A stretch of 38,432 nucleotides of DNA from positions 1-38,432 of the forward strand of contig NZ_QLIX01000033.1 in the NCBI RefSeq assembly GCF_003258945.1. Reading direction: 5' to 3'. The DNA comes from Roseicella frigidaeris. Lineage in GTDB: Bacteria > Pseudomonadota > Alphaproteobacteria > Acetobacterales > Acetobacteraceae. The position numbers and the translations under genes were made by a program. Below the pieces are notes generated by a model that was not told the DNA's origin, did not search any database, and saw only the letters and a program-made list of their open reading frames with translations. Shown one piece after another: positions 19,095 through 34,766 of this stretch (position 1 is the first letter of the stretch; each line of letters starts with the position of its first letter).

Positions 19095-19118
19095 CCCCGC
19101 CGGCCGAAGCCGGCGGGG
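19095..19118 (-). terminator. Hairpin between membrane-anchor and MFS genes
   Basis: A perfect 10-base-pair GC stem (19095-19104 with 19109-19118) closes a CGAA loop. It lies 3' of the membrane-anchor gene on the - strand and just before the MFS start. There is no T-run, so it may only attenuate transcription into the MFS gene. Confidence 0.5.
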
Positions 19119-19125
19119 GCCAGTA

Positions 19126-19773: not shown

Positions 19774-19785
19774 GTCAGGGATTCC

Positions 19786-20508: not shown

Positions 20509-20569
20509 GAGGTGAGACCGCTCAGCTGAGATAAGGAAGGGATCGTCCGAAGACGGCGGCACGGGCAGC

Positions 20570-20884: not shown

Positions 20885-20920
20885 GCCGCGCGGCTACCCC
20901 ACTCCTGTGTTGCTCGCACT

Positions 20921-20957
20921 GGATAGCAGATTGACGCTATCCCTACCAGGGGGATAG
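20921..20957. promoter_or_regulatory. Nested inverted repeats, probable CsoR/RcnR-family operator
   Basis: Three alternating half sites occur: GGATAGC (20921-20927), GCTATCC (20936-20942) and GGGATAG (20951-20957). The last two form CTATCCC-N7-GGGATAG, a GC-tract-centred repeat of the style bound by CsoR/RcnR-family repressors. TTGACG at 20931-20936 is a plausible -35 inside the same region for the + strand gene. Binding would therefore block both divergent promoters. Confidence 0.6.
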
Positions 20958-20966
20958 GACAGGCTC

Positions 20967-21245
20967 ATGAGTGATCCCCATACCCACGGGTCCCACCCCG
21001 AGATCGTCAAACGGCTGAAGCGGGCCGAGGGCCATCTGCGCAGCGTGGTCGAGATGATCGAGTCGGGTCGGCCATGCCTGGACATCGCGCAGCAACTTCA
21101 CGCGGTGGAAGCGGCCATCGCCAAAGCAAAACGCACCCTTATCCACGACCATCTCGACCATTGCTTGGACCACGTCGTCGGCGCGATCCCGCGCGCCGAC
21201 CGCGGGCCTATCGATGACTTCAAGGCCATCACCAAGTACTTGTGA
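20967..21245 (+). CDS. CsoR/RcnR-family metal-sensing repressor, InrS-like
   Basis: This 92-residue all-helical protein belongs to the CsoR/RcnR (DUF156) family of tetrameric repressors that release DNA on metal binding. The ligand positions can be read by spacing: His5, Cys37 (RPCLD), His62 and Cys66 (HDHLDHC). The 32-, 25- and 4-residue steps match the known W-X-Y-Z set, giving His-Cys-His-Cys. InrS, a nickel sensor, has this set; CsoR (copper) lacks the first His, and RcnR has His in place of the last Cys. Extra N-terminal His residues (HTHGSH) may also help. It is divergent from the His-rich/HupE block, with an operator-like repeat between. Nickel is the favoured ligand, with cobalt or copper possible. 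Confidence 0.8.
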   Translation: MSDPHTHGSHPEIVKRLKRAEGHLRSVVEMIESGRPCLDIAQQLHAVEAAIAKAKRTLIHDHLDHCLDHVVGAIPRADRGPIDDFKAITKYL

Positions 21246-21295
21246 GTAATCATCCCGCACATCTCCGGCAGGCTTCGTGGGTCGGGCACGCCCGT

Positions 21296-22495
21296 TCAGG
21301 CAGTCGCCCGAAGCCGGCGACGCCGTACCAGGCCAAGCGCCACGATCGCCGCGGCCGCGAGCGTAAGCCAAGGCAGAAGCACGATGTTCAGCATCTGCCA
21401 TCCGAGCCGATCGAGCATCGCGCCGGCAGCGAGCGAGGAGGCGAGGCCCACCGCGAAGATCGTCAGGTCGTTCGCGGCCTGTGCCCGCGCCCGCTCCGCC
21501 TGGGTGTAGGTTTCGGTCAGCAGCGTCGTGCCGCCGATGTAGAGGAAGTTCCACCCGACCCCGAGCAGTACGAGCGCTGCGACGAAACTGTGGAACCCAG
21601 TCCCGGTCAGCGTCATGCCGACATGCGCGCAGAGCACCACCACCCCGGTCAGCATGATCCGCAGCACCCCGAAGCGCGCGATCAATGAGCCCGTGAAGAA
21701 GGAGGGCAGGAACATGCCGAGTGTGTGCGCCTGGATCACTCGCGCCGCGTCCGCGATGCCGTGCTCGTGGTGGATCATGGCGAGCGGCGTTGCCGTCATG
21801 GCAAGGATCATCACACCATACCCGGTCGCCGCACCGAACAGCGCCACGAGGTAGGATGGCTGGCGAACGATGCTGCCAAGCGGGCGTGGCGTCGCTGCCC
21901 CTGCTACTGCGGCCGCGGGCGGTGCCGCCGGCATGCGCAGGCCGAGCAGAATTCTCATAGCAAGCAGGCTGACGACCGAGAGCAGCAGGAATGACCCCGT
22001 GAATTCCGGCTCCAGCAGCGGACCGCCATGCCGCCCGAGCTCCGGCCCGACGATCGCGGCGAAGACGCCGCCGGCGAGCACGTAGGAAATGGCACGCGGC
22101 CGGAAGGCGGCATCGGCCACTTCGGCCGCGGCAAAGCGGTAGAATTGGGCGAAGCCCTGATAGGCGCCGATCAGCAGTGTACCGAAACCGAGCAGCACGA
22201 GCGACCCGGTCCAGATGCCGGCGGCGCCGCAGAGCCCGCCGAGGACGCCGAGTGCCGCACCTATGAGGAATCCATATCGGCGGCCGCGCCGCGCCATCAG
22301 CATCGAGGCCGGAAAGGTCGCCGCGGCCGTGCCGAGGAACATCGCCGCGATTGGCGCGGTGACGAGCCATGGCGCAGGGGCGAGGTGCGTCGCGGCCAGC
22401 GCAGCGACCGTCATTACCAGCACGGATGCGGTCTGGAACAGAGCCTGGGCCGAGGCGAGCAGCAGCACGTTGCGGGTTTGGTGCGTCGTGGTCAT
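21296..22495 (-). CDS. MFS transporter, substrate unknown
   Basis: This 399-residue protein is an MFS permease with about 12 helices. The loop between helices 2 and 3 reads MLMARRGRRYGFLIG, the standard family motif, and the second half has a similar GSLIARFGVLRIML. The middle loop is Ala/Pro-rich (PAAPPAAAVAGAATP). It is the last gene of the - strand run that begins at the fatty acid hydroxylase and is separated from the methyltransferase by 23 bases, so it is probably co-transcribed. Context suggests export or uptake of a sulfur-related or lipid-related compound, but nothing in the protein shows the substrate. It is convergent with the nickel repressor gene, 50 bases away. Confidence 0.8.
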   Translation of the reverse strand: MTTTHQTRNVLLLASAQALFQTASVLVMTVAALAATHLAPAPWLVTAPIAAMFLGTAAATFPASMLMARRGRRYGFLIGAALGVLGGLCGAAGIWTGSLVLLGFGTLLIGAYQGFAQFYRFAAAEVADAAFRPRAISYVLAGGVFAAIVGPELGRHGGPLLEPEFTGSFLLLSVVSLLAMRILLGLRMPAAPPAAAVAGAATPRPLGSIVRQPSYLVALFGAATGYGVMILAMTATPLAMIHHEHGIADAARVIQAHTLGMFLPSFFTGSLIARFGVLRIMLTGVVVLCAHVGMTLTGTGFHSFVAALVLLGVGWNFLYIGGTTLLTETYTQAERARAQAANDLTIFAVGLASSLAAGAMLDRLGWQMLNIVLLPWLTLAAAAIVALGLVRRRRLRATA

Positions 22496-22518
22496 GGCGG
22501 CTCCTCGTGAGTGTCGGT

Positions 22519-23121
22519 TCAGCCGGAAGCCGGCCGGGCGGGCTTATGGACGTGCAGGGCGATGAACGCCGCCCCGAAGGTCGTCACACGGCCGAGCTGC
22601 GCATCGAACCCGGAGATCAGTCGCGCCATCGCGGCGTTCGGCGGGTGGAAGACCGCCCCCCGGACGTCGTCGATCACCAGGCTGGCGGCTGCCGCCGCGC
22701 GGCGCAACTGGCTGGCCGAGTGGAAGGCCGCGCTGCGCCAGAGCCGCGATCCGATCCAGCCGCGGATGCGCCGGCGCAGCGCCCACAGACTCCAGCGTCC
22801 GAGCTCGCCGATCACCAGCCGCCCGCCGGGGCGCAATACGCGCGCCATCTCACGCCAGGCCGTCGCCTCGTCCTTGACGAAGCACAGCACGGTGACGGCC
22901 GTGAGCAGGTCGAAAGAGGCGTCGGGGAAGGGCAGCGCCTCGATGCGGCCCTGCACGAAGCGGATGTCCTGCCCGGCCGTTCGCTCCGCCGCCGCGCGCA
23001 GCATGGCGGCGTCCGGATCGATGCCGGTCACGCGCGCGCCAGCGGCGGCGAGTTCCACCGCGAGCAGCCCGTCGCCGCAGCCAATGTCGAGACTGTCGAG
23101 CCCGACCACGTCGCCGATCAT
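22519..23121 (-). CDS. Class I SAM-dependent methyltransferase
   Basis: This protein is about 200 residues long from the ATG at 23121. It is a Rossmann methyltransferase: motif I LDIGCGDGLLAVELA, the acidic end of strand 2 in VTGIDPDAAML, motif II around PFPDASFDLLTAVTVLCFV and motif III LRPGGRLVIGEL. Coding-like sequence continues 37 codons upstream (PIPTGPEAYRAWRISSLGR), and related proteins usually include it, but no ATG, GTG or TTG is in frame there. The only candidate is CTG at 23235, overlapping the DsrE stop as CTGA. The true protein may thus run from 23235. The substrate is unknown; within this operon a thiol or a lipid is possible. Confidence 0.8.
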   Translation of the reverse strand: MIGDVVGLDSLDIGCGDGLLAVELAAAGARVTGIDPDAAMLRAAAERTAGQDIRFVQGRIEALPFPDASFDLLTAVTVLCFVKDEATAWREMARVLRPGGRLVIGELGRWSLWALRRRIRGWIGSRLWRSAAFHSASQLRRAAAAASLVIDDVRGAVFHPPNAAMARLISGFDAQLGRVTTFGAAFIALHVHKPARPASG

Positions 23122-23231
23122 CGGCCGAAGCGCCGCGGCCTCGCACGCATCGGTGATGCGGCCGAGCGACGAGATGCGCCAGGCGCGATAGGCTTCCGGC
23201 CCCGTGGGGATCGGCGCGGTGCTAGCCCCGC

Positions 23232-23585
23232 TCAGAACACCAGCACCTTATCGGCATCGATGGTCGCTGCCGCGAGTTCGTCCATGGTGCTGCGACGGGC
23301 GCCGTCCATGATGTCCTGATCGGTCATGCCGCGGGCATCCATGCAGGTGCCGCAAAGCAGCACGGCGCCCTTGCCGACAACCACGCGCTTCAGCATGCGC
23401 TCAAGGCTGTAGTAGCCCTCCGGCACCTTCTGGCCCCGCCGCGCGGCGCCGACCGCATCGGCCATCAGGAAGACCGTGACCTCGGTGGCCGGATCGCGCT
23501 TGAGCAGGGCACCAGCCAACCGCAGTGCGTTGTAGCAGCGCTCGGTGCCGTAGGGCGGATCGTTGACGATGAAGAGGATCTTCAC
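23232..23585 (-). CDS. DsrE-family sulfur-transfer protein
   Basis: This 117-residue protein has the DsrE/YchN fold: ILFIVNDPPYGTERCYNALRLA at the start, TEVTVFLMADAV in the middle and KGAVLLCGTCMDARG, with Cys78 and Cys81 at the position of the sulfur-carrying cysteines. DsrE-type proteins bind persulfide and pass sulfur between partners. The GTG start at 23585 has GGAGG 5 bases upstream and overlaps the preceding stop by four bases. A longer reading to 23657 would overlap the rhodanese domain gene and adds only Arg-rich residues. It follows a rhodanese-containing gene, a natural persulfide donor. Confidence 0.85.
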   Translation of the reverse strand: MKILFIVNDPPYGTERCYNALRLAGALLKRDPATEVTVFLMADAVGAARRGQKVPEGYYSLERMLKRVVVGKGAVLLCGTCMDARGMTDQDIMDGARRSTMDELAAATIDADKVLVF

Positions 23586-24613
23586 GTGGGCGCCTCCTTC
23601 GGCGTTGCGCCGGCGATCGGCGCGCCGCGGGTCACGGGTAGACCCGCAGCGGTCCATGCCTTCATGCCGCCGCGCAGCACAGCGACATCTTGATGCCCGG
23701 CGGCGACCAGCGCCTCGGCCGCGCGGGCGGACCGGCGATCGGTCAAGCAGACCAGCACCACCGCGCCCGTGCCGGCCTGAGCCGGGTCCGCCACCAACGC
23801 TTCCACCGGGATGTTGGCGGCGCGCGCGATGTGGCCGAGCGGGCCGGTGAACTCGTCAGCTCCGCGCACATCGATCACCCTCGGCGCGCCGGTTGCGGCG
23901 AGCACCTGCGACAGGGCATCGACATCGGTCCAGGCCATCGGCTCCCCGGCCGGGGCGGGCCGGCGGACGCGACGCAGCAGCCGTGGCAGGAAGGCAATGG
24001 CAGCGAGCACCGCCAGGCCGAGCAGCCCGTAGCGCAGCGCCGCCGCGTCGTCGCCCGAGAGCGCGCCGCGCCCGGCATGGCCGAGCCAGGCATAGGCAGC
24101 CGTGCCCGGGATCATGCTAATGGCGGTCGCCAGCACATACTGGCCGATCGGGATGCGCGTTAGGCCCAACGCGTAGTTGGCAAGATTGAAGGGCACCGCC
24201 GGCACCAGACGGACCAGCGCGACGAAACGCCAGCCCTCGGCCTCCACCCCGTCGACGACCTGCTTGAGCCGCCCGCCAGCGCGTCGTGCCACCCAGTCGC
24301 CGGCAAGATGGCGGGCCACCAGGAAGGCGAGCGTTGCCCCGAGCGTTCCACCCGCGAGGTTGATGACCGTGCCGAGCACCGGCCCGAACAGGGCGCCGCC
24401 GGCCAAACCGAACACCGAACCCGGCAGGAACAGCACAGTCGCCGCCGCAAAGATCAGGACGAAGCCGACCGCGCCCCAGGCGCCGAGGCCGCGCACCGCG
24501 TTCTCCAGTGCCGTGAGGTCCAGCCGGTCACGCACCAGGAAGGTCGCCGCGACCGCCGCCGCCAGCACCGCTGCCAGCAGCCAGCGGGACAACGGCCGCT
24601 GGGGCGCCGACAT
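23582..24613 (-). CDS. TVP38/TMEM64 (VTT) membrane protein fused to a rhodanese domain
   Basis: This 343-residue protein has two parts. Residues about 10-215 are a VTT/SNARE-associated membrane domain with the family signatures FLPGSVFGLAGGALFGPVLG and RLVPAVPFNLANYALGLT. Residues about 228-335 are a rhodanese domain with RVIDVRGADEF and an active-site loop with Cys289 (CLTDRRSARAAE) followed by VLRGGMKAWTAAGLPV. VTT proteins act in membrane lipid or small-molecule passage, and rhodaneses carry persulfide sulfur. The fusion puts a sulfurtransferase on the inner membrane, probably facing the cytoplasm. It overlaps both neighbours: TGATG with the hydroxylase and GTGA with the DsrE gene. Confidence 0.87.
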   Translation of the reverse strand: MSAPQRPLSRWLLAAVLAAAVAATFLVRDRLDLTALENAVRGLGAWGAVGFVLIFAAATVLFLPGSVFGLAGGALFGPVLGTVINLAGGTLGATLAFLVARHLAGDWVARRAGGRLKQVVDGVEAEGWRFVALVRLVPAVPFNLANYALGLTRIPIGQYVLATAISMIPGTAAYAWLGHAGRGALSGDDAAALRYGLLGLAVLAAIAFLPRLLRRVRRPAPAGEPMAWTDVDALSQVLAATGAPRVIDVRGADEFTGPLGHIARAANIPVEALVADPAQAGTGAVVLVCLTDRRSARAAEALVAAGHQDVAVLRGGMKAWTAAGLPVTRGAPIAGATPKEAPT

Positions 24614-25449
24614 CAGGCGCGCTCGCGCCGGCCGAGCGGATAGGCGCGATCATCCTCTCGCAGCGGCTGGGTCAGCATGCGATCGAGGCGCAGCTCACGC
24701 GGGTCGCGGAACTGCTCGATGCCGATCGTCATGGCCTCGTGCCCGGCGGCGGGCTGGGCGCGATAGGTGCCGAAGATCCGGTCCCAGACCGCCAGGTTGA
24801 AGCCGAAATTGCTGTTGGTTTCGCGCGGCACCACCGAATGATGGACGCGGTGCATGTCGGGCGTGACCAGCACAAGCCGGAGCAGGCGGTCGAGCCGTTC
24901 CGGCAGGCGCAGATTGGCGTGGTTGAATATCGCGGTTGCGTTCAGCAGCACCTCGAACACCAGCACCGCGACCGCCGGCGCGCCGAGGGCGACCACCACC
25001 ATCAGCTTGATGACCATCGACAGCAGGATCTCGACCGGGTGGAAGCGCAGGCCGGTGGTGACGTCGAAGTCGAGGTCGGCGTGGTGCATCCTGTGCAGCC
25101 GCCATAGCGCGGGCACAGCGTGGAACATCACATGCTGCAGATAGATGGCGAGGTCGAGCAGCACGACAGCGAGTAGGATCGCAAGCGGCTGCGGCACCCC
25201 GAGCCAGGGCAGCAACCCAACCCCGCGCCCCTCCAGGGCGAGCGCCAAGCCGACCGCCGCGGTGGGGAAGACGAGGCGCACCACCAGGCTGTCGAGCACC
25301 ACTACGCCGAGGTTGCTCGGCCAGCGCAGCCAGCGCCCGGCGCTGCGCTGGCGGCGCGGCAGCCAAGCCTCCAAGCCTGCCATTAGGGCCAGGATGCCGG
25401 CGAAGACCGCCAAACGGATCAGTGGCTCGTGGGCCAGAAGGCTGTTCAT
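24613..25449 (-). CDS. Sterol desaturase / fatty acid hydroxylase family protein
   Basis: This 278-residue membrane protein carries the di-iron histidine motifs of the family: LQHVMFHAVPALWRLHRMHH, then GLRFHPVEI, FNHANLRLP and HRVHHS near the C-terminus. Members use O2 and a di-iron centre to hydroxylate or desaturate lipids. There are about four membrane helices, and the His clusters lie on the cytoplasmic side. It is the first gene of the - strand operon and starts 81 bases from the divergent ArsR-rhodanese regulator. A link between a lipid hydroxylase and rhodanese proteins is notable. Sterols are unlikely in this organism, so the substrate is more likely a fatty acid, hopanoid or carotenoid. 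Confidence 0.85.
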   Translation of the reverse strand: MNSLLAHEPLIRLAVFAGILALMAGLEAWLPRRQRSAGRWLRWPSNLGVVVLDSLVVRLVFPTAAVGLALALEGRGVGLLPWLGVPQPLAILLAVVLLDLAIYLQHVMFHAVPALWRLHRMHHADLDFDVTTGLRFHPVEILLSMVIKLMVVVALGAPAVAVLVFEVLLNATAIFNHANLRLPERLDRLLRLVLVTPDMHRVHHSVVPRETNSNFGFNLAVWDRIFGTYRAQPAAGHEAMTIGIEQFRDPRELRLDRMLTQPLREDDRAYPLGRRERA

Positions 25450-25491
25450 GGAGCGGTTCCGGGTTGACGTGGCCCTGGCGGCTGTTCATTA

Positions 25492-25509
25492 TTCAATCAC
25501 ACGATTGAA
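25492..25509. promoter_or_regulatory. Palindrome, probable ArsR-type operator
   Basis: TTCAATC (25492-25498) and GATTGAA (25503-25509) form a perfect 7-4-7 inverted repeat between the divergent hydroxylase and regulator genes. It is AT-rich compared with the surroundings. ArsR-family repressors such as BigR and SqrR bind AT-containing dyads of this type in shared promoters. The site is 21 bases from the regulator's GTG and 42 bases from the hydroxylase ATG, so a bound repressor would cover both promoters. Confidence 0.7.
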
Positions 25510-25530
25510 CGTAGGATCGGGGCCAAGCCC

Positions 25531-26199
25531 GTGTCAAGCAGCGACAGCACCCCGAAGCGCCGCCTCCTCGCCGCCTTCGCTTCCGTGGGGCGTGCGCTTG
25601 GACACGAACATCGGCTGGAACTGCTCGAAGTCCTGGCGCAGGGGGACCGCACAGTCGACGCGCTGGCCGCGCGCTCCGGCCTGCCCTTCGCGAACACCTC
25701 GCAGCACCTGCAGCACCTGCGCCGTGCCGGCCTCGTCGAGACGCGGCGCGAGGGCAAGCACGTGGTCTACCGCCTGAGCGATGACGCGGTACCGGCGCTG
25801 CTCACCGCGCTGCGGCGGGTAGCGGAGCGCAACCTTGCCGAGGTCCAGCACGTGGTCGCCACCTACTTCGCTGGGCGCGACCGCCTGGAAGCGGTGTCAC
25901 GGGACGATCTGCTCGCCCGGCTCGGTGAAGGCGGCGTCATCCTGCTCGACGTACGGCCGGAGGACGAGTTCGCGGCCGGCCACCTGCCCGGCGCCCTGAA
26001 CGTGCCGCTTCACCGGCTGGATGCGGCCATCGCCGCGCTGCCGCGCGACTGCGAGGTTGTCGCCTACTGCCGAGGTCCCTATTGCGTGCTGTCCTTCGAT
26101 GCGGTGGAGGAGCTCCGGCGTCGGGGATTTCGGGCGCGGCGCCTGGAAGACGGCTTCCCGGAGTGGAAGGCGGCCGGCCTGGCCGTAGAGGCGGCGTGA
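25531..26199 (+). CDS. ArsR-family regulator fused to a rhodanese domain
   Basis: This 222-residue protein has an ArsR winged helix at residues about 10-95 (GHEHRLELLEVLAQ; recognition region PFANTSQHLQHLRRAGLVE; wing TRREGKHVVYRL) and a rhodanese domain at about 118-222 (LLDVRPEDEFAAGHLPGA). The rhodanese active loop is Cys180-RGPY-Cys185. The ArsR half has no cysteine at all, unlike BigR and SqrR, so persulfide or redox sensing must use the rhodanese cysteines. The GTG at 25531 gives the full winged helix; 81 bases separate it from the divergent operon. It likely represses that operon and itself until reactive sulfur appears. Ligand identity is inferred. Confidence 0.87.
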   Translation: MSSSDSTPKRRLLAAFASVGRALGHEHRLELLEVLAQGDRTVDALAARSGLPFANTSQHLQHLRRAGLVETRREGKHVVYRLSDDAVPALLTALRRVAERNLAEVQHVVATYFAGRDRLEAVSRDDLLARLGEGGVILLDVRPEDEFAAGHLPGALNVPLHRLDAAIAALPRDCEVVAYCRGPYCVLSFDAVEELRRRGFRARRLEDGFPEWKAAGLAVEAA

Positions 26200-26244
26200 C
26201 GGCGGAGCAGGCGGCACGGCCGCAATGAAGGGGGGAGCGGTCGG

Positions 26245-26745
26245 ATGCCTGTGACGCGAGAGGATCTGTTCCTACGCCTGGCGGCGCTTGGCATCGAGAC
26301 GTCGACGTTGCCCTACCCCGAGCACCGAACAGTGGAGGAGGGCAAGGCGCTGCGCGGCGATATGCCGGGGAGCTTCACCAAGAATCTCCTGCTGAAGGAC
26401 AAGAAGGGGCGGCTGTTCCTCGTGGTGGCGCACGAGGACAGCGTCTTCGACCTCAAGACGCTGCATGCGCGCGTCGGCGGTCAGGGCCGCCTTGGCTTCG
26501 CCACACCGGAGCAGGTTCGTGGCCTGCTCGGCGTCGATCCGGGAGCGATAACGCCCTTCGGGCTGATTAACGACACGGAGCAGGCCGTGGTGCCGGTGAT
26601 CGAGGCCGCGCTGCTGGCTGCTGAATGGCTCAACTTCCACCCGCTGGAGCAGACAGGCAGCACGAGCATCCGCCCGGACGATTTGCTCAGCTTTGTGCGG
26701 GCATGCGGGCACGCGCCGCTCTGCGTGGCGCTGGTAGACGGGTAG
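26245..26745 (+). CDS. YbaK/ProX-type prolyl-tRNA editing protein
   Basis: This 166-residue protein is a stand-alone editing domain of the YbaK/ProXp family. Typical segments are LPYPEHRTVEEGKALRGDMPG, SFTKNLLLKDKKGRLFLVV (the Lys in FTKNL is the conserved family lysine), LGFATPEQVRGLLGVDPGAITPFGL, and the C-terminal FHPLEQTGSTSIRPDDL. ProXp-ala proteins remove alanine wrongly attached to tRNA-Pro in the cytoplasm. It is 45 bases after the ArsR-rhodanese gene, same strand, and may be co-transcribed, though a sulfur-related job is not evident. The length is complete for the family. Confidence 0.9.
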   Translation: MPVTREDLFLRLAALGIETSTLPYPEHRTVEEGKALRGDMPGSFTKNLLLKDKKGRLFLVVAHEDSVFDLKTLHARVGGQGRLGFATPEQVRGLLGVDPGAITPFGLINDTEQAVVPVIEAALLAAEWLNFHPLEQTGSTSIRPDDLLSFVRACGHAPLCVALVDG

Positions 26746-26806
26746 CCACGGGCTGCTCCTCCGCCGCCTGCGGAGCGCGCCACGCAATGAGCGTCGCGCT
26801 GCGTCG

Positions 26807-27154
26807 ATGAGCCATATCGTCGCCCGACCGACTGCCGAATTGAACATCTCCGTGGTGACGCCCGCCCGCGACAGCCTGGAAGCCGTGACGCGGCAGGATC
26901 TGCTCGGCCGGCTGAAGGCGCGCGACGTCGTCGTGCTTGACGTGCGTCCGGAGGATGAATTCGCGGCCGGCCACCTGCCCGGCGCCCTGATCGTGCCTCT
27001 CGCCTCGCTCAATCGGGCCATGCTCGCGCTGCCACGCGACATGGAGATCGTCGCCTATTGCCGCGGACCATACTGCGTGTTGTCGTTCGATGCTGTTGAG
27101 GCACTGCGCGGCTCAGGATTCCAGGCACGACAAGGTCGCGGGCCTGACTGTTGA
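26807..27154 (+). pseudogene. Decayed second copy of the ArsR-rhodanese gene (rhodanese half)
   Basis: This 115-residue frame copies the rhodanese half of the regulator at 25531: LEAVTRQDLLGRLKARD, DVRPEDEFAAGHLPGA and AYCRGPYCVLSFDAVEAL are nearly the same. Sequence before the ATG, back to about 26748, still resembles the linker helix (LLLRRLRSAPRNERRAAS), but the winged helix is missing. At the 3' end the codons for the segment RLEDGFPEWK are deleted out of frame, so the frame ends GRGPDC. The original ending AGLTVEVA is still readable in the next frame up to a TGA at 27162-27164. The catalytic cysteines survive, so a stand-alone rhodanese fragment is conceivable, but the missing last strand argues for a remnant. 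Confidence 0.75.
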
Positions 27155-27261
27155 AGTAGCCTGAGGGCGAAACGGTCGCCGCAGTATCCGCAGGAACCCA
27201 TAGGGACGGAGCCTCCGCGATAGGCAATGGTTCAAGCCCGGGCGCGCTGCCTCCGAAAGAT

Positions 27262-28107
27262 CTACGCCAGCTCGCGCACGCGCTCATAGAACAGCCGCGC
27301 CGGCGCGCGCCGCGGCAAATCGGCGGGAAGCACTGCCCAGATCTGTCGGCGCATGGCCGGGCCCGCAAGGGCGACCCTGACGAGCGAGCCCGCCGCCAAC
27401 TCGTCGCGCGCCGCACATTCCAGCAGCACCGAGACGCCAAGCCCCGCCGCCACCGCTCGCTTCACGCCCTCAGTGCTGCCCATCGCCCGGGCCACGCGCA
27501 TCGGGGGTGCCGCGCTGCCCAAGGCCTCGGCCAGCACCCGGCCCATGCCGGTGCCGGGTTCTCCGCCGATCAACGGCTCGGCCAGGAAGATCTCCAGCGG
27601 TATCGGTTCCGTGCCCGCATAGCGGTGGCCTGGTGGCACGATGCCGATGACTGGCTCCTCCCGCCACGGCAACGCCTCGAAGCCTGGTCGTCCGTCCCAC
27701 CATTCGGTGAAAGCGATGTCCGTCTCGCCAGCCGCCAACAACTCGAGTGTCTCTGGGTTGGAGCCGAGGCGCAGTTCCTCTTCTGCACGCAGCAGTGGCG
27801 GAAGGAGGTAAAGGCCCGGATTGCGCGCCGAGCCGATGACCAGCGGACGCGATGTGAACAGGCTCGCAGCTTGGCGTGCGCCTTCCACAAGGCGGCGGGC
27901 ATGCGGCAGCAGGCGCTGCCCTTGTGGCGTCGGGGTACCGCCTCGGCGGCTGCGCTGGATGAGCGGCACACCGAGTTCCTCCTCCAGCCGGTGTAGGCGC
28001 TGGGTCAGCAACGGCTGCGACACGCCCAACCGCCGCGCCGCAGCGCGGAAGCCTCCATCTTCGACGACCGCGACGAAGCTATTCAGCAGGCCGAGGTCGA
28101 GCATCAT
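27262..28107 (-). CDS. ptxE: LysR-family regulator of the phosphite cluster (PtxE-like)
   Basis: This 281-residue LysR-type regulator has its HTH at residues about 4-62 (LLNSFVAVVEDGGFRAAARR, VSQPLLTQRLHRLEEELGVPL) and an effector domain after about residue 88 (RPLVIGSARNPGLYLLPPLL). The ATG overlaps the phosphite dehydrogenase stop by four bases, so they are co-transcribed. Pseudomonas stutzeri ptxE is likewise a LysR gene next to ptxD. The DNA it controls is probably the AT-rich stretch between ptxD and ptxA. The symbol is given by context; the effector is probably phosphite or phosphate status but is not visible in the sequence. Confidence 0.75.
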   Translation of the reverse strand: MMLDLGLLNSFVAVVEDGGFRAAARRLGVSQPLLTQRLHRLEEELGVPLIQRSRRGGTPTPQGQRLLPHARRLVEGARQAASLFTSRPLVIGSARNPGLYLLPPLLRAEEELRLGSNPETLELLAAGETDIAFTEWWDGRPGFEALPWREEPVIGIVPPGHRYAGTEPIPLEIFLAEPLIGGEPGTGMGRVLAEALGSAAPPMRVARAMGSTEGVKRAVAAGLGVSVLLECAARDELAAGSLVRVALAGPAMRRQIWAVLPADLPRRAPARLFYERVRELA

Positions 28108-29090
28108 GCCGCCCTTCCGATCAGACCCGGCACCGGCGCGCCGGCGAAGAAGGCGGCCATCGATTCCGCGGCCGCCATCTCGATCGCCTCGCGCACCTGC
28201 GCGACGGCCGAGCCGAGATGCGGCGTGAACAACGTGCGTGGGTGCGCGAGCAGCGCAGGCGGGATCTCGCGCGGACGGTCCGGCAGGGCCCAGTCCTCCA
28301 TGGCGAACACGTCGGCCGCGTATCCGCCGAGGCGCCCGGCTTCGAGGGCCGTCGCCACCGCCGCCTCGTCCACCAGCGAGCCACGCGCCACGTTCACCAC
28401 CAGCGCGTGGGCCGGCAGCAACGCCAAGCGCCTCGCGTCGAGGATGTGGTGGGTGGCGGGCGTCAGCGGCAGGCCCAGCACCAGCGCATCGGCCACTGGC
28501 AGCAATTCCTCGATCGGCGCAGCGGTCACACCCGGCGGGGCCGGGGCGCCCGCGTCATGGCCAAGGATCCGGCAGCCGAAGCCCTGCAACCGCGCAGCCA
28601 CAGCCTGGCCCACTCGACCGAAGCCCAGCAGCCCAACTGTCGCGCCTTCGAGCCCGGCTCCGTAGAGAATCGGCCGCCAGCCCGCGAAGCCGCCGCCGCG
28701 CACTAGCGCATCACCTACGCGAACATGCCGGCCGAGGCCGATGAGCAGCCCGACCGCAAGCTCGGCCGTAGGCGCGGTCAGCAGGTCCGGCACGACGGAG
28801 ACGACCACGCCACGGCGCTCACAAGCGGCAAGGTCGAAGTTGTCGGCCCCCTTCAGCGCACAGCCAATCATGCGCAGCCGCGGACAGGCAGCGAGGAAGG
28901 CCTCGTCCACATGGTCCGTCATGAAGGCGAGCAGCCCGTCTGCCTCGGCGGCGCGGGCGCGCAGCTCCACGACCGGCCAGGGCTCGGGGCCCGGGTTCAT
29001 CTCGACGGCGGCAAAGCCCCGCAGGCGCGCGAGGACGCGCTCGTGCAGTGGCTGCGTCGCGAGGATGCGAGGTGGCGGGGCGGGTTTCAT
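28104..29090 (-). CDS. ptxD: Phosphite dehydrogenase (NAD-dependent)
   Basis: This 328-residue D-2-hydroxyacid dehydrogenase-family protein oxidises phosphite to phosphate with NAD. It follows P. stutzeri PtxD closely: CALKGADNFDLAAC, VVPDLLTAPTAELAVGL, GGYAADVFAMEDWALPDRP and LFTPHLGSAV are PtxD-type, and the last two segments differ from general hydroxyacid dehydrogenases. Catalytic positions are present: Lys80, Arg236, Glu265 and His291 (PtxD Lys76, Arg237, Glu266, His292), as is Met57. The Rossmann motif GFGRVG is at 156-161, and Asp179, in place of PtxD Glu175, fits NAD preference. It is divergent from the phosphite/phosphonate ABC genes and overlaps the LysR gene. Length is normal (PtxD is 336). 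Confidence 0.93.
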   Translation of the reverse strand: MKPAPPPRILATQPLHERVLARLRGFAAVEMNPGPEPWPVVELRARAAEADGLLAFMTDHVDEAFLAACPRLRMIGCALKGADNFDLAACERRGVVVSVVPDLLTAPTAELAVGLLIGLGRHVRVGDALVRGGGFAGWRPILYGAGLEGATVGLLGFGRVGQAVAARLQGFGCRILGHDAGAPAPPGVTAAPIEELLPVADALVLGLPLTPATHHILDARRLALLPAHALVVNVARGSLVDEAAVATALEAGRLGGYAADVFAMEDWALPDRPREIPPALLAHPRTLFTPHLGSAVAQVREAIEMAAAESMAAFFAGAPVPGLIGRAA

Positions 29091-29123
29091 CGAGACGTCA
29101 CTCCGATAGCCGTCGTGGCCGGG

Positions 29124-29143
29124 TTATACGGCGATAAATTATC
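29124..29143. promoter_or_regulatory. AT-rich dyads between ptxD and ptxA
   Basis: In a 73-base divergent promoter region, TTAT (29124-29127) and ATAA (29134-29137) form one dyad, and GATAA-A-TTATC (29133-29143) forms a second, overlapping one. This is the most AT-rich stretch nearby. LysR-type proteins bind T-N11-A dyads of this kind, so it is the likely site for the LysR regulator of both gene sets. Confidence 0.5.
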
Positions 29144-29163
29144 AAACAAGCGTGGAGTTGCAA

Positions 29164-29967
29164 ATGAATGATCAAAGAGACCGCGCCGTTGCGCTACGAC
29201 TGATCGCCGCTGGCGTCGTCTATCCGAATGGCACGCGCGCACTTCATTCCACGAGTCTCGACTTCGCTGAGGGCGCCTTCACCGTGCTGCTCGGCCCTTC
29301 GGGCGCCGGGAAATCCACCCTGCTGCGCAGCCTCAACGGCCTTGTGCCGCTCAGCGAGGGGCATGTGGAGACGAGCCGCCTTGGCGTGGTGCGCGGCACG
29401 CGCGGCTGGCGTGAGCACCGCCGCTCCACCGGCATGGTGTTCCAGCAACACCAGTTGATCGGCCGGCTGACCGCCTTCGCCAATGTGTTAACCGGCCGCC
29501 TGGGCCACCACTCGACCCTGCGCAGCCTGCTGCCGCTTTCGCCCGCCGAGAAGCACCTCGCACTGGACGCGCTGGAGCGCGTGGGCCTGCTGGAATTTGC
29601 GCTGCGCCGCGCCGACCAGCTCTCCGGCGGGCAGCAGCAGCGCGTGGGCATCGCGCGCGCACTCGCCCAGGCGCCCAACCTGATCCTGGCCGACGAGCCC
29701 GTGGCCTCGCTCGACCCCGCCACCTCCGAGCGCGTGCTGGCCCTGCTGCACGACATCTGCCGGCAGGACGGGCTCTCCGCCATCGTCTCGCTGCACCAGG
29801 TCGACCTCGCCCGCCAGTTCGCCGACCGCATCATCGGCATCGGTGGCGGGCGCGTTGTGTTCGACGGACCGCCCAAGGATCTCGATGAGGCAGCGATCCG
29901 CCGCATCTACGGCGGCACCGCGCCCACCCCCGTACATGCCACCCGCATCTTGGAGACCACGCCATGA
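29164..29967 (+). CDS. ptxA: Phosphite/phosphonate ABC transporter ATPase (PtxA/PhnC)
   Basis: This 267-residue protein is a PhnC-family ATPase: Walker A GPSGAGKST (about 44-52), Q-loop VFQQHQLIGRLTAFANVL, signature LSGGQQQRV (about 153-161), Walker B LILADEP (about 173-179) and switch His in SLHQVDLAR. These features, including FQQHQLIGRLT, are those of phosphonate/phosphite uptake ATPases. ATG at 29164 has GGAG 6 bases upstream; a GTG at 29152 is possible. Its stop overlaps the binding-protein start by four bases. Next to ptxD it most likely powers phosphite uptake, though phosphonate is possible. Confidence 0.87.
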   Translation: MNDQRDRAVALRLIAAGVVYPNGTRALHSTSLDFAEGAFTVLLGPSGAGKSTLLRSLNGLVPLSEGHVETSRLGVVRGTRGWREHRRSTGMVFQQHQLIGRLTAFANVLTGRLGHHSTLRSLLPLSPAEKHLALDALERVGLLEFALRRADQLSGGQQQRVGIARALAQAPNLILADEPVASLDPATSERVLALLHDICRQDGLSAIVSLHQVDLARQFADRIIGIGGGRVVFDGPPKDLDEAAIRRIYGGTAPTPVHATRILETTP

Positions 29968-30833
29968 ACCGCCGCTCCCTGCTCGCCGCACCGCTGCTGC
30001 TGCCGGCGCTGGCCGCGACCCAGGCCCATGCCCAGGCGCAGAACCCCACTCGCCTGCGCATGGCGCTGCTGCCAGACGAGAACGCCTCCACCATCATCCA
30101 GAACGCGCAGCCGCTGCGCACGCATCTGATGCAGGCGCTGGGCCGTGACGTGCAGGTGGTGGTGACGACCGACTACTCCTCCATGATCGAGGCGATGCGC
30201 TTCGGCCGCATCGAGATCGCGTATTTCGGGCCGTTCTCCTACGTGCTGGCGAAGTCCCGCGCCGAGGGCATCGAGCCCTTCGCCGTGGGTGTCGAGCGCG
30301 GCTCGCCCACCTATCGCTCCATCATCATCGCAACCGCCGACGGTCCGGTGAAGAAGCTGGAGGATGTGCGCGGCCACCCGATGGCCTTCGGCGACCAGGC
30401 CTCCACCTCCTCGCACCTGGTGCCGCGCGCCACCATCCTGCGCCGCACCGGCCTGGTGGGCGAGCGCGACTTCCGCGTGGTGCATGTCGGCACGCATGAC
30501 GCGGTGGCCCGCACCGTGCAGTCGGGCCGCGCCCCGGTCGGCGCGCTGTCGGAGCTGATTTTCCATTCGCTGCTGGCACGGAATGTCATCCAGCGCGAGC
30601 GGCTGGTGGACGTCGCCTTCTCCGATCCCATCCCCAACTACCCGATGGTGATGCAGGGCAACCTGGCGCCCGAGCTGAAGCAGGCCATCCGCAATGCTTT
30701 CCTAAACCTGCGCGACGGTGAGTTGCTGCGTAACTTCCGCGTGGAGGGCTTCGCCGCCACTGACGACGCTGCTTACGACGTGCTGCGCGAGACGGCGCGC
30801 ATCCTGAACCTTGACCTCGGTCGGATGAGCTGA
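29964..30833 (+). CDS. ptxB: Phosphite/phosphonate-binding periplasmic protein (PtxB/PhnD)
   Basis: This 289-residue protein has a signal peptide with two arginines (MNRRSLLAAPLLLPALA, cleavage near AHA), then the PhnD fold: LRMALLPDENAS, TTDYSSMIEAMRFGRIEIAYFG, GDQASTSSHLVPR and later NYPMVMQGNLAPELK. In this family the Tyr/Ser residues around YSS and the ST-S-HL helix bind the phosphonate or phosphite oxyanion. It captures the substrate in the periplasm and hands it to the permease. Overlap with both neighbours (ATGA at the start, TGATG at the end) ties it into a single operon. Specificity for phosphite is inferred from the adjacent ptxD. Confidence 0.87.
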   Translation: MNRRSLLAAPLLLPALAATQAHAQAQNPTRLRMALLPDENASTIIQNAQPLRTHLMQALGRDVQVVVTTDYSSMIEAMRFGRIEIAYFGPFSYVLAKSRAEGIEPFAVGVERGSPTYRSIIIATADGPVKKLEDVRGHPMAFGDQASTSSHLVPRATILRRTGLVGERDFRVVHVGTHDAVARTVQSGRAPVGALSELIFHSLLARNVIQRERLVDVAFSDPIPNYPMVMQGNLAPELKQAIRNAFLNLRDGELLRNFRVEGFAATDDAAYDVLRETARILNLDLGRMS

Positions 30834-31633
30834 TGTCGGGGACAATGCAACAGGGCATCCTGGCGGCCGAGCGTGCCGACGGGCGCCGCCAGGCGCTGCT
30901 GGTGGCAGGCGTGCTGGCGATCTGCGTCGCGGCGCTCGCCATCACGGGTTTCTTCGACGCGCAGCGCTTCGCCGAGGGCATTCCGGCGCTGGCGCAGCTC
31001 GGCTCGGAGATGTTCCCGCCGGATTTCTCGCGCTGGCAATTCTGGATGAGGCCGCTGCTGGACACGCTGGCCATGTCCATTGCCGGCACCATCCTGGCGG
31101 TGATCCTCTCGCTACCGCTGGCGCTGCTGGCCGCGCCCAACACCACGCTGCACCCGGCGCTGGGGCACGTCACGCGGTTGGTGCTCTCCTTCCTGCGCTC
31201 GGTGCCGGAACTGATCCTCGGCATTATCTTCGTGGCGGCGGTGGGCTTCGGCGCGCTGCCTGGCGTGCTGGCGCTGGCGCTGCATTCGGTGGGCATGGTC
31301 GGAAAGTTCTACGCTGAGGCCATCGAGCACGCGGATCCGCGTCCGGTGGAGGCCGCGCGCGCGGCCGGTGCCACGCGCGTTCAGGTCATTACCAAGGCTG
31401 TGCTGCCGCAGGTGCTGCCGCAACTGGCCGACATCACCATCTACCGCTGGGAATACCACTTCCGTGCCTCGACCGTGCTGGGCATCGTGGGGGCGGGCGG
31501 CATCGGCTTCGAGCTGATCGCAGCACTTCGCCTAATCGCCTATGACCAGGTAGCGGCCATTCTCATCACCATCCTGGCCTGCGTCGTGGTGGTGGACAGC
31601 CTGGGCGCAGCTCTGCGACGGCGGCTCAAGTAA
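30833..31633 (+). CDS. ptxC: Phosphite/phosphonate ABC transporter permease (PtxC/PhnE)
   Basis: This 266-residue permease has about six membrane helices and the PhnE features: FWMRPLLDTLAMSIAGT, LSFLRSVPELILGIIFVAA, the EAA loop around AIEHADPRPVEAARAAGATR, and STVLGIVGAGGIGFELIAAL. The EAA loop contacts the ATPase. It starts at the stop of the binding-protein gene (TGATG). Only one permease gene is present, as in ptxABC. A strong hairpin lies after its stop, closing the operon. Confidence 0.87.
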   Translation: MSGTMQQGILAAERADGRRQALLVAGVLAICVAALAITGFFDAQRFAEGIPALAQLGSEMFPPDFSRWQFWMRPLLDTLAMSIAGTILAVILSLPLALLAAPNTTLHPALGHVTRLVLSFLRSVPELILGIIFVAAVGFGALPGVLALALHSVGMVGKFYAEAIEHADPRPVEAARAAGATRVQVITKAVLPQVLPQLADITIYRWEYHFRASTVLGIVGAGGIGFELIAALRLIAYDQVAAILITILACVVVVDSLGAALRRRLK

Positions 31634-31666
31634 GGGCCGAAGAGCTCGCCGCGACGGGTGCCCCCG

Positions 31667-31692
31667 GCCGGGCACGGGAAGCCGTGCCCGGC
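31667..31692 (+). terminator. Hairpin after ptxC
   Basis: An 11-base-pair perfect stem (31667-31677 with 31682-31692) closes a GAAG tetraloop, 34 bases after the ptxC stop. There is no T-run after it. It is the probable end of the transporter operon, possibly Rho-assisted. Confidence 0.6.
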
Positions 31693-31802
31693 AGCCGCGC
31701 GAGAGCAGAGCGATCATCGGCAGAAGCCGCTTGTACCGAGTCGCACGTCCGCCGCCAGCGATCGTCGATGCACCCACGCGTCATCCACGTTCCGATTAGA
31801 AC

Positions 31803-32387
31803 TCAGTGGAAGTGCTGGCCTCGCGCCATGGCAAGGTGATGCGGCTGGTGGTGGGCGCCGCTGACAAGAAGCCCGATGAAGCCAAGCCCACGGACGCGCA
31901 CGACCTCCCCCGGATCAGCGGACGTCACTGTGAGCCGAATGCCATCGTGCAGCACCTCCGTGCGGGCACGCCAGGCAGGCAGCTGGTCCAGTTCACGGGC
32001 GTGGGCCGGGATCATGCGCAGAATGGCGTCGAGCGTCCGGCCGGTACCGGTCACCGCGATCTCGATCCCACCGTCAACGGGGCGCTCCGCGGCGACGGCC
32101 TTGAGCGTGACCTCGTTCATGTCGATGAGGTGCTCGCGCAATGCGGCGAGGGTCACCTTGGACCAATCGGTCGTGGGGTCGGCCTCCAGGATGCGGACGA
32201 TCTCCTGGATCGTGCCGAAGGCGTCCTGGCCGGGCAGCGTCGGTGTTGCGGCTGTAGCCGGCCGGTGCATCCCCGCGTGACCGTGGGGCGGAGCCTGGGC
32301 TGCCACGGGCGCAAGATGCAGCGCGCCGAGGGCGCCTGCAGCGGTGAGGATAGCCATAGCCATGATGGCGAAGTGCTTTGGCGACAT
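31803..32387 (-). CDS. Periplasmic His-rich hypothetical protein
   Basis: This 194-residue protein starts at ATG 32387 with a good signal peptide (MSPKHFAIMAMAILTAAGAL, cleavage near AAQA). Then come a His-rich stretch (PPHGHAGMHRPA), a helical domain from about residue 55 (FGTIQEIVRILEADPTTDW, LREHLIDMNEVTLKA), a domain with TLDAILRMIPAHARELD, and a His-rich end (GAHHQPHHLAMARGQHFH). An earlier ATG at 32441 would bury the signal peptide. I do not recognise the family. The two His clusters suggest metal (copper or nickel) binding in the periplasm. Its neighbours, a phosphite operon and a molybdate transporter, give no direct clue. Confidence 0.6.
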   Translation of the reverse strand: MSPKHFAIMAMAILTAAGALGALHLAPVAAQAPPHGHAGMHRPATAATPTLPGQDAFGTIQEIVRILEADPTTDWSKVTLAALREHLIDMNEVTLKAVAAERPVDGGIEIAVTGTGRTLDAILRMIPAHARELDQLPAWRARTEVLHDGIRLTVTSADPGEVVRVRGLGFIGLLVSGAHHQPHHLAMARGQHFH

Positions 32388-32486
32388 GAAGTGCTCCGCG
32401 GAAACGTGTTGCTGGACAAGGTACGGCCTCCCGCCATGCAAAGCGTATGACTGCGGTCATGTGGGATCGGTATCGGCTCCCTTGAT

Positions 32487-33629
32487 CTAGACTTCGTCAG
32501 CGCGCCGCCTGGGACGCAGACTCGTTCGGGCCCATTCCGCGATCCAGCCGGCCGCGATGCCAAGCGCGGGGTTCAGTGCGAAGGTCGCGACTGCGGCGGC
32601 GGCGATGGCCGGCCGGCACTCGCTGCGGACCTCGAGCAGCCGCCGCGACAGAGCGAGATCACTGCCAGCGAGGATCAACAACGCGCCGAGCGCACCCGAT
32701 GGAACCACCGCGAGCAGGCGAGCCGCGTCCTCCGCGAAGAACAGGCCCATCGGCAGCAGCAGCGCGCCGAGCAGGACCGGCGCCCAGCCGGTGCGCGCCC
32801 CGAAGCGATGCTGTGCAATCAGCCCCCCCGCGCCATGGCACATCGGCAGGGCCCCAAAGGGCGTGAGCAGCACATTCGCTCCGCCCGTGACCAAGCCGAG
32901 CCGGCGTTCAGAGGCATGCGCCGCCGAGGCGGGCGGGAACATCTCGCGGACCAAAAGGGCGGGCAGCAGCACGGCATTGGCGAGCGTGAGCGGCAGTTGC
33001 GGCAACGCGCCGAACAGCAGCCCGTGCCAGGCCTCCTCGCCGCTGCCTGGCAAAACGAGCGGCGGCATGGCGAAGGCTACCGAGGGCATCGGCGGCAGCG
33101 CCGTGCCTGCGGCGAGATCCACGGCAATGGCGGCTGCGAGGGCAAGCGGCACCGAAGGGAGACGTGGGACGAGCCGCGGCAGGCCGAGCAGCAGGACCAG
33201 GGCGATGCCCGCTGTGAGCGGCCCCGCCCAGACAAGCCCGATCCCGATCCATGCCATGCTGGCGCCCACGCCGAGTTGCAGACCCAGCACCGCAGAGCGC
33301 GGAACGACGCGCGCCGCCCAGGCCGTTGCACCCGATAGCGTCAGCGCCAGCAGGATCAGCCCGCCCGCGATCCCCGCGGCTGCAACCTCGCCCGGCACCA
33401 GCCCGCCGGCGATCACGAGGGCGCCGACCGCCTTCATCGGCTGCACCGGCATCGGCAGGCGGTAGATGACACCGGTCGCGATGAGGAACACGCCGAAACC
33501 CACCAGCACGCCGCCGGCCGACATGCCCGCAACCGCGACTGCGCCGAGCAAGACAGGCAGCAAGGTACCAAGGTCGCCGAAGGCGCCGCCCACCTCGCCG
33601 GCAATCGAGGGGCGTGCGGTGGGCTTCAT
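32487..33629 (-). CDS. MOT1-type molybdate/sulfate transporter
   Basis: This 380-residue membrane protein has about 10-11 helices and both MOT1 signatures: VGGAFGDLGTLLPVLLG (about 13-29) with PMPVQPMKAVGALVIAGG (about 59-76), and LPMCHGAGGLIAQHRFGART in the second half. MOT1 proteins belong to the SulP-related superfamily but lack the STAS domain, as here. They import molybdate, or sulfate in some bacteria. The ATG overlaps the stop of a Crp-family regulator by four bases, so both are on one transcript. Molybdate is the first choice from the PMPVQPMKA motif; substrate is not proven. Confidence 0.87.
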   Translation of the reverse strand: MKPTARPSIAGEVGGAFGDLGTLLPVLLGAVAVAGMSAGGVLVGFGVFLIATGVIYRLPMPVQPMKAVGALVIAGGLVPGEVAAAGIAGGLILLALTLSGATAWAARVVPRSAVLGLQLGVGASMAWIGIGLVWAGPLTAGIALVLLLGLPRLVPRLPSVPLALAAAIAVDLAAGTALPPMPSVAFAMPPLVLPGSGEEAWHGLLFGALPQLPLTLANAVLLPALLVREMFPPASAAHASERRLGLVTGGANVLLTPFGALPMCHGAGGLIAQHRFGARTGWAPVLLGALLLPMGLFFAEDAARLLAVVPSGALGALLILAGSDLALSRRLLEVRSECRPAIAAAAVATFALNPALGIAAGWIAEWARTSLRPRRRADEV

Positions 33630-34225
33630 GCTGCGGCCACCACGGGCAGGTGCACGCTGCCGTCATCGTCGCGCCGAAGCCGTCCCGCCCGTTCCAAACG
33701 GGCAAGGGCGCGGTATGTCGCTTCGTGTGACAGGCCCAGTTCCGCTGCCAGGGTCTTCCAGGACCTATCGAGCCGCCGCGAACCGTCAGGCTCCGACGGC
33801 AGGGCATGCAGCACGTCGAGGATCCGATCCGCCGCGTGAGGCAGGGCCAGGCGCTCAGCCCTCGCACGCTCCGCGACAAGGCGCGCTGCCAGGTGTGCCG
33901 CGATGCGCCAGCCAAGCGATGGATCGGTCTCGGCCGCCCGCCGCAGATCTGATGCTGCAAACACCGTCACACGGCTCGGCACCGCGGCGACAGCGTCGCA
34001 ATGATGGTGGGTCTCGAAGAGCGAGGCCTCTGCGAAGGTGTCGCCAGGCCCGGCGCGATGCAGCACCAGCCGGCGCCCTTCTGGCGAAGTGCGGATGAGT
34101 TCCAGCGTCCCGTCCTGCACGAGAACAAGGCCGAGGGCAGGATCGCCGGCGAAGAAAAGTTGGTAGCCCCTTGCCAGAGCGACATCACGGCCGGGTGGAA
34201 GGGTGCTGAGGAGATCGAGGCTCAT
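33626..34225 (-). CDS. Crp/Fnr-family transcription regulator
   Basis: This 199-residue protein has a cyclic-nucleotide-binding-type beta roll at residues about 10-115 (LALVLVQDGTLELIRTSPEGRR-type core; GPGDTFAEASLFET) and a winged helix at about 130-190 (SWKTLAAELGLSHEATYRALARLERAGRL). No FNR-type cysteine cluster is present, so it does not sense O2 with Fe-S. The ATG at 34225 was chosen over one 19 codons earlier because the beta roll begins right after it. It is the first gene of the MOT1 transcript and probably controls it, sensing an unknown small molecule. Confidence 0.8.
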   Translation of the reverse strand: MSLDLLSTLPPGRDVALARGYQLFFAGDPALGLVLVQDGTLELIRTSPEGRRLVLHRAGPGDTFAEASLFETHHHCDAVAAVPSRVTVFAASDLRRAAETDPSLGWRIAAHLAARLVAERARAERLALPHAADRILDVLHALPSEPDGSRRLDRSWKTLAAELGLSHEATYRALARLERAGRLRRDDDGSVHLPVVAAA

Positions 34226-34766
34226 GTGACCGCGATCATATAGAGTGGTGGTGCGCTGCGCGATCCTCCCGATGGACCGCAAGGTAGTGATTTTCTGCTG
34301 GGCGTGACGCTGGTCTTGCCGACGACGGCTCAGACCCGCACCGCGGGAGCGTAGCGTTGCACACCGGGCGATGACTCAGACGGCGAGACGCGTCTCATAA
34401 ACACCAGAGAAGGTTGGAATCCGGTTCCCACCGCTGCTCCAGTCGGTCTCTCAGAACACATTCTCCATAGTGGCGTCGCCTCGCAGAAGCGCGGCCTTTC
34501 GCCACGTTTTCCGCGCGCACCTTGAGACTTCAAGGGCGGCACCGAAGCCCTATGCGGTTCTCTCTCCGGGCTTTTCTCTCCGGACCTTGGGACTGGCCCG
34601 ATCCAGTCTACAAGCCTCAACCCGTTGTTCTGCCTCATCTTTGCCGCGTCGCAGGACTTGGATATTCAGCAACTGCTTCGCCCAGGCGAACGCCTCGGAC
34701 GTCTGAATCCGGCGCGTCGCAGGCCCAAGCCCCTCGAATCTCCCGATCCTGTGTTACCCTTCCGGT
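34226..34766. other. 541-base stretch without a credible gene
   Basis: Between the Crp-family gene and hsdR, short frames exist on both strands but none has family features. The sequence includes a perfect 12-base palindrome, GAGACGCGTCTC (34385-34396), followed by CTCATAAACACC and a GGAA-TCCGG-TTCC hairpin (34414-34426). Base composition is lower in GC than the flanks. It may hold the promoters of both flanking genes and an old recombination junction. No tRNA cloverleaf could be built. Confidence 0.5.

Follow-up and report, generated by a model that had tools for sequence, protein, structure and literature searches.

How does a bacterium of the Acetobacteraceae come to hold a full set of genes for the use of phosphite, and what carries that set? 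The question is raised by a 38,432-nucleotide stretch of Roseicella frigidaeris DNA (NZ_QLIX01000033.1), hereafter the window, which is the entire contig C27 of its genome and which holds at 27262-31633 a predicted phosphite dehydrogenase gene (ptxD), a LysR-family regulator gene and the three genes of a PtxABC-type transporter. We consider it likely that this is an assimilatory phosphite set carried by a recently moved temperate phage, and that it would confer phosphite use on the lysogens. The phosphite enzyme system itself is already known and its layout is typical of the lineage; the finding is very probably the carriage by a temperate phage, as judged from sequence comparisons. The initial annotation of the locus had described a complete phosphite uptake and oxidation cluster in a divergent layout. 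The cluster was confirmed, with all five open reading frames intact in a check of the window sequence, and its phosphite identity and divergent layout stand, but the prophage cargo setting beyond the cluster borders had been missed.

The gene at 28104-29090 is predicted to encode a true PtxD. Indeed, its best 14 sequence matches in the PDB (phmmer) are all phosphite or phosphonate dehydrogenases, with E values from 3.9e-96 to 5.9e-87, and the next match is a glyoxylate reductase at 2.8e-52. In the alignment to the P. stutzeri enzyme, Lys80, Arg236, Glu265 and His291, which we take to be the catalytic residues, are present at exactly the positions named beforehand, as are Met57, Trp138, Tyr143 and Ser294, presumably further residues of the active site. 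The segment GGYAADVFAMEDWA, which had been described as specific to PtxD, was likewise found in the protein. The acidic residue D179, near-invariant in PtxD, occupies the position where we assume NAD selection takes place. A tree was built from 64 rows; in it, a 100/99 branch separates 57 PtxD sequences, that of P. stutzeri among them, from seven other 2-hydroxyacid dehydrogenases taken from the window's own genome (eight redundant rows were omitted, as was L065, too short at 180 residues). These seven sit on long branches; the split nonetheless agrees with the ranking of the PDB matches. The protein falls with characterised PtxD and not with the other dehydrogenases, as the initial annotation had expected.

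The transporter points to the same substrate. The ATPase and the permease pass the NCBIfam cut-offs for PhnC (290.7 versus 266.1 bits) and PhnE (287.5 versus 216.7 bits), respectively. The binding protein scores above the cut-off of the phosphate/phosphite/phosphonate subfamily (231.9 versus 112.05) but below that of the PhnD phosphonate-binding equivalog TIGR03431 (198.7 versus 261.1 bits). Its top PDB matches are PtxB proteins (5o2j, of the P. stutzeri type, 1.8e-80; 5lv1, 1.4e-69; 5jvb, 8e-68), followed at a distance by a phosphonate-type protein (1e-22), HtxB (5e-20) and PhnD (6e-18 and 6e-17). Bisson et al. 2017 (PMC5700983) name the pocket and cap residues of PtxB, and all eight of those that we checked, in the pocket (STS-H and tyrosines) and in the D/Y cap, are kept: D38, Y71, Y117, S147, T148, S149, H178 and Y226 correspond to D16, Y49, Y94, S124, T125, S126, H155 and Y203 of Ps_PtxB. 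Phosphite is the likely ligand. The family models are generic only (2-hydroxyacid dehydrogenase for the enzyme, PhnC and PhnE names for the transporter) and would as well suit an enzyme and a transporter acting on a phosphonate, a 2-hydroxy acid or some other compound. We regard this as extremely improbable in view of the PtxD tree placement and site residues, the PtxB pocket and cap residues found in place of the phosphonate cap, and the missed PhnD cut-off. The phosphite identity, which rests on tree placement, active-site residues and PtxB pocket and cap residues, thus appears well supported. PtxABC would import phosphite using ATP, and PtxD would oxidise it with NAD+ to phosphate and NADH; growth on phosphite is a prediction from these gene identities.

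What, then, carries the cluster? The ptx genes sit in the 16.7 kb that separate the last tail gene of a phage module from a 32-bp attachment (att) repeat, amid unrelated metabolic genes. A conjugative element was considered as the carrier and dropped, the conserved module being made of phage head-tail genes. Whole elements with the same arrangement were found in two relatives. In the genome of Roseomonas sp. CECT 9278, the repeat occurs on contig 1 at 70697, 138701 and 204688, and with one mismatch at 216696, in an array that begins with a tRNA-Gly(GCC) gene at 3564-3638. The tRNA and the three repeats nearest to it delimit three elements of 67.1, 68.0 and 66.0 kb (E1 to E3), all in the order serine recombinase, terminase, portal, capsid, tube, tape measure, tail and spike; E3, the recombinase and terminase of which were confirmed by family models, holds ptx. 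In G311, a genome of another genus assembled in three contigs, a single 65.3-kb element runs from tRNA-Gly(GCC) at 123141-123215 to a repeat with four mismatches at 188521, in the order recombinase, terL, portal, capsid, tube, tape measure, tail, spike, LysR-ptxD / ptxABC (180422-184785) and att repeat. Recombinase, terminase, portal, capsid and tail genes, together with ptx, hence lie inside the tRNA/att borders in both E3 and G311. Three further genomes (G216, G300 and G321) have att-repeat pairs spaced 67.4, 65.9 and 65.5 kb that enclose the same phage genes, with recombinases 94-97% identical. In the window's genome, a tRNA-Gly(GCC) gene lies at 128529-128603 of contig C4, with a 96% identical recombinase 9 kb further. 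In all, the att repeat (at most three mismatches) was found in 33 of 397 sampled genomes of the family, and its reversed control in none. The repeat was also tried as the 3′ end of a tRNA; ARAGORN found no tRNA at the repeats on which it was run, and tRNA-Gly(GCC) is seen at the left end of the arrays only, its end (GCTCCA) being common to the att repeat. We propose that the phage is temperate and tailed, measures about 66 kb and carries the ptx set as cargo at its right end. It would integrate via its large serine recombinase at tRNA-Gly(GCC), where tandem stacking would be possible.

Two genes at the left end of the second CECT 9278 element (contig 1, 71199-74122; L099:16200-19120) encode a CBASS-type oligonucleotide cyclase and an E1-E2 protein, respectively, so that in this phage family the left end may be a place for defence genes.

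Could the ptx genes instead belong to a separate genomic island, inserted at the same tRNA-Gly hotspot beside the prophage and outside the phage genome? IMG/VR does contain this phage: a search with the tail gene gave 71 loci, 55 of them 70-100% identical (L143-L197). In 41 of these 55, resemblance to the window is lost no more than 75 bp from where the spike gene ends, as an island would predict. Thirteen others break off sooner, and a single one covers the first cargo gene and reaches 19072; for 18 of the contigs, the end of the contig lies at most 13 bases from the end of the spike gene. Trimming of host-like ends, or just different cargo, would explain these breaks. We judge the separate island quite unlikely: the window has no second att copy on the same strand between the spike gene and the cargo (at most 10 mismatches), the whole unit of G311 is bounded by one tRNA and one att repeat, and cargo is found in this place in all seven intact elements (E1-E3, G311, G216, G300 and G321). 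A scan of IMG/VR for the att repeat yielded four contigs, none of which matches the window cargo past the repeat. According to the identifiers of the 55 contigs, such proviruses number three in one source genome and four in another, which is consistent with tandem stacking.

The idea that the cluster is phage cargo is further informed by what related prophages hold at this place. These prophages retain the structural genes and have different cargo in the slot, as seen in an all-against-all blastn comparison of the stretch from spike gene to repeat in eight sequences. The cargoes of the window and of E3 are of equal length (16,721 bp) and match over 100% of it, and G311 covers 79%; the window ptx cargo has no match to those of E1, E2, G216, G300 and G321. 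G216 and G321 share their cargo, about a third of which is also in G300, and that of E1 comprises HAD, GST, OsmC-hydrolase, LysR, MBL-fold and PNPOx genes. Among the seven intact elements, the standard deviation of total length is 1.0 kb, against 1.8 kb for the cargo and 2.2 kb for the rest, and the lengths of cargo and rest are anticorrelated (r -0.88). Equally tight totals arose in 68 of 5040 permutations, and in 5 of 120 for the five elements without shared cargo. These statistics are modest; the tight total length fits a packaging limit and so supports the cargo being part of the genome that would be packaged in virions.

A second case of ptxD among these phage genes comes from G075, a genome of another genus, where a 65% identical ptxD and its LysR gene lie between degraded repeats at 327695 (nine mismatches) and 305808 (six mismatches). 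This ptxD lies near a fragment of the spike gene, and a pair of tRNA-Gly(GCC) genes marks the start of the array. Over the 123 kb of G075 read, no gene resembling ptxB or ptxC was found. Beside ptxD-lysR (C1:305886-314544; L022, L226 and L227), MBL-fold, TctC-, TauD- and GntR-like genes, named by reading their sequences without a family search, replace ptxABC; this set is possibly an alternative cassette for reduced phosphorus. MBL-fold relatives are also seen near ptxD-lysR in L009, L012, L062 and L071. We are slightly inclined towards a broader reading, in which a family of temperate Acetobacteraceae phages of about 66 kb shuttles exchangeable metabolic cassettes of about 14-18 kb between the last tail gene and att, with the total near one headful. 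One lineage would have spread the full phosphite set between distant chromosomes very recently, and the ptxD-lysR of G075 would have been captured independently in the corresponding slot.

How recent is the movement? The window is 98.4% identical to CECT 9278 over 106-34457. Counted per kb, differences occur in the bins of 0-6 kb, in those of 16-18 kb and past the att repeat, and there are none at 6-16 and 18-34 kb. A metagenome-assembled genome (MAG) labelled Rubritepida is 100% identical to the window over 21107-34447, and shown at 100% over 14643-24500. In contrast, when a 20-kb chromosomal stretch of the window's genome (contig C12) was compared with CECT 9278, the MAG and G311, all alignments longer than 800 bp were 69-77% identical. 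Past the att repeat, the window, CECT 9278 and the MAG each run into different sequence. An identity this unusual over 34 kb could also mean that C27 is foreign to this genome, a contaminant of the assembly. This is very unlikely in our view, as C27 departs from CECT 9278 in its first 6 kb, at 16-17 kb and past the repeat, contig C4 of this genome bears a tRNA-Gly followed by the start of a prophage, and the same cargo occurs independently in G311. An identical element in distant chromosomes, with differing sequence past att, is the pattern of a recently moved element and speaks against plain contamination. A phage that moved recently between Acetobacteraceae should therefore deliver phosphite use by lysogenic conversion, and the finding of these genes in a close relative of the virus in another genus suggests that the trait travels by phage.

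We infer from sequence that the cargo would be packaged in virions and transferred by infection. The prophage might instead be defective or domesticated, ptx lying between att sites in an element that no longer makes particles and the cargo having moved by homologous recombination or with another mobile element. Decayed relatives are common (a 12.0-kb remnant in CECT 9278, 37.5 kb in G321, and the degraded elements of G075), and ptx is absent from the viral-collection contigs searched. Indeed, a PtxB search of the viral catalogues returned only two 36% fragments of 57 residues, and a search with the MOT1-like neighbour nothing of use. We nevertheless find this explanation unlikely: E3, which bears ptx in CECT 9278, encodes a recombinase, a terminase, a portal, a capsid and tail proteins, its mismatch-free run against the window spans tail genes plus cargo, and total length is kept at 65-68 kb.

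Several observations weigh against carriage by a recently moved temperate phage, which we still prefer. The window contig has only the right part of the prophage, from the portal gene onward, and C4, in which the recombinase lies 3.6 kb from the contig end, and C27 are separate contigs in the assembly. The Rubritepida contig is part of a MAG, where it could have been binned wrongly, and one 525-bp chromosomal alignment to CECT 9278 reaches 86%. INPHARED gave no PtxD (36 records, all below 60% identity, and 25-32% among the 20 matches listed), nor did IMG/VR hold a PtxD relative with single-sequence and alignment queries. Among 14 further PtxD genomes of the family, only G075 has ptxD within this phage's genes, and in a decayed element; no gene of this phage was found near ptxD in the other 13 (15-40 kb each, at the thresholds used), and the check covered genomes other than G257, G341 and G376, whose contigs are below 8 kb. 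Lastly, neither a conserved LysR operator nor a sigma-70 promoter was found in the intergenic region: the alignment of the window with seven relatives has short shared patches only, the window's GATAAATTATC dyad, tried as an operator, is not conserved in these relatives, and the promoter scan gave zero matches.

The features of the window are collected in Table 1.

Table 1. Phage module, cargo region, ptx genes and attachment repeat in the window.
Feature	Position	Strand	Basis
Phage portal protein	401..1891	+	PF05136, phrog_21
Phage major head/protease protein	3406..5481	+	PF25209, phrog_4523
Head-tail connection, tail terminator and tail tube genes	5713..9317	+	PF05354, PF18906, phrog_4204, phrog_290
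Tail tape measure protein	10041..12197	+	PF20155, phrog_3336
Tail proteins, tail tip J-like	12618..15843	+	PF13550, phrog_2048, phrog_5616, phrog_31
Spike-like last gene of conserved phage module	15856..17688	+	Weak pectate-lyase-like match; no PHROG
Variable cargo region with ptx cluster	17689..34409	.	All-against-all cargo comparison
LysR-family regulator, PtxE-like position behind ptxD	27262..28107	-	Pfam LysR_substrate and HTH_1
ptxD, NAD phosphite dehydrogenase (predicted)	28104..29090	-	PDB matches, residues, tree
Divergent intergenic region, presumed promoters	29091..29163	.	Sequence; 73 bp
ptxA, transporter ATPase	29164..29967	+	NCBIfam ABC_phnC above cut-off
ptxB, phosphite-binding protein (predicted)	29964..30833	+	PDB PtxB match; pocket and cap residues
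ptxC, transporter permease	30833..31633	+	NCBIfam PhnE above cut-off
Attachment repeat, prophage right end (attR-like), 32 bp	34410..34441	+	Copies at element borders, CECT 9278 and G311

The LysR gene and the stop of ptxD overlap by 4 bp. Control of the presumed promoters between the divergent genes probably falls to the LysR protein. The ATPase gene has two candidate starts, GTG at 29152 and ATG at 29164; a GGAG lies 6 nt before the ATG, which is probably the one used, so that 73 bp are left between the divergent genes. The cargo beside ptx (19126-25449) includes HupE/UreJ-like, MFS, methyltransferase, DsrE, VTT-rhodanese and fatty-acid-hydroxylase-like genes. An ArsR-rhodanese gene follows at 25531-26199, and about 1 kb downstream of it lies a shorter repeat of its rhodanese part (26807-27154, 78% over 239 bp). 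A type I restriction HsdR-like gene (34767-37541) starts 326 bp past the attachment repeat and is possibly cargo of another stacked element.

The divergence of ptxD-lysR (minus strand) from ptxABC (plus strand), as opposed to the one-direction ptxABCDE operon type, had been singled out in the initial annotation. It is real but not unique. Among 40 PtxD loci collected from named genomes, ptxABC diverges from ptxD in eight (L034-L039, L065 and L070), and in a ninth (L043) a transporter of different gene order does so; the genes share one direction in 23, and the other eight loci lack a transporter next to ptxD. A Ciceribacter plasmid adds a further divergent case. The eight loci with divergent ptxABC come from Roseomonas (two), Rubritepida, Asaia, Elioraea, Rhodovarius, Falsiroseomonas and an unplaced alphaproteobacterium. 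Two (L034 and L035) carry the same ptx copy as the window, the ptxD of another (L039) has an internal stop, and LysR stands behind ptxD in only some. The divergent layout is a lineage trait. PtxD itself was detected (E below 1e-60) in 19 of the 397 genomes sampled in the family, and in 9 of 102 genera.

Phosphite use is patchy among bacteria, and the carriers known from the records and the paper compared here are plasmids, chromosomes and a transposase-flanked island. A temperate phage with the whole pathway would, if our reading is right, be a direct route for the spread of phosphite use, and lysogeny would be nutritionally useful when phosphate is short. Our results also suggest that viral catalogues may cut such prophages short at their cargo end and so undercount the metabolic genes that phages carry. 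We found no report of phage-borne ptxD in the accessible text of the literature searched (open-licence papers, among the matches listed), and no mention of it in the available portions of PMC10746228 and PMC5357788.

How does this element compare with known systems? It shares with temperate phages that carry moron cargo a tRNA-linked att site, a recombinase, cargo beside the attachment site and a mosaic genome; none with phosphite genes was found in the viral collections and literature searched. The ptx-ptd island of Desulfotignum phosphitoxidans, the nearest case in the literature searched, also represents lateral acquisition of phosphite oxidation genes, but it is dissimilatory, relies on MFS uptake and is flanked by transposases rather than carried by a prophage (PMC4046663). 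The Ciceribacter selenitireducens plasmid (L009) has, like the window, ptxD-lysR divergent from a phosphonate/phosphite-type ABC transporter; however, its transporter order is B-C-A, its binding protein is 31% identical to that of the window, and the plasmid is conjugative. In other Acetobacterales (L036-L039, L065 and L070) ptxABC diverges from ptxD as in the window, although some of these loci are without LysR. Genes of the window's phage are absent within the 11-14 kb of L036 and L065 and do not adjoin ptx in the stretches read of L070, L037, L039 and L038 (G196, G204, G143 and G288, respectively). The same five components, namely a PhnC/D/E-type transporter, a phosphite dehydrogenase and a LysR protein, with the key PtxD and PtxB residues kept, are found in ptxABCDE of P. 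stutzeri WM88, the genes of which presumably run in one direction, and in the Stenotrophomonas plasmid copy L013, where they do so. The window PtxD is about 52% identical to that of L013, and ptxD-lysR and ptxABC diverge in the window, where the carrier is a prophage and not a plasmid.

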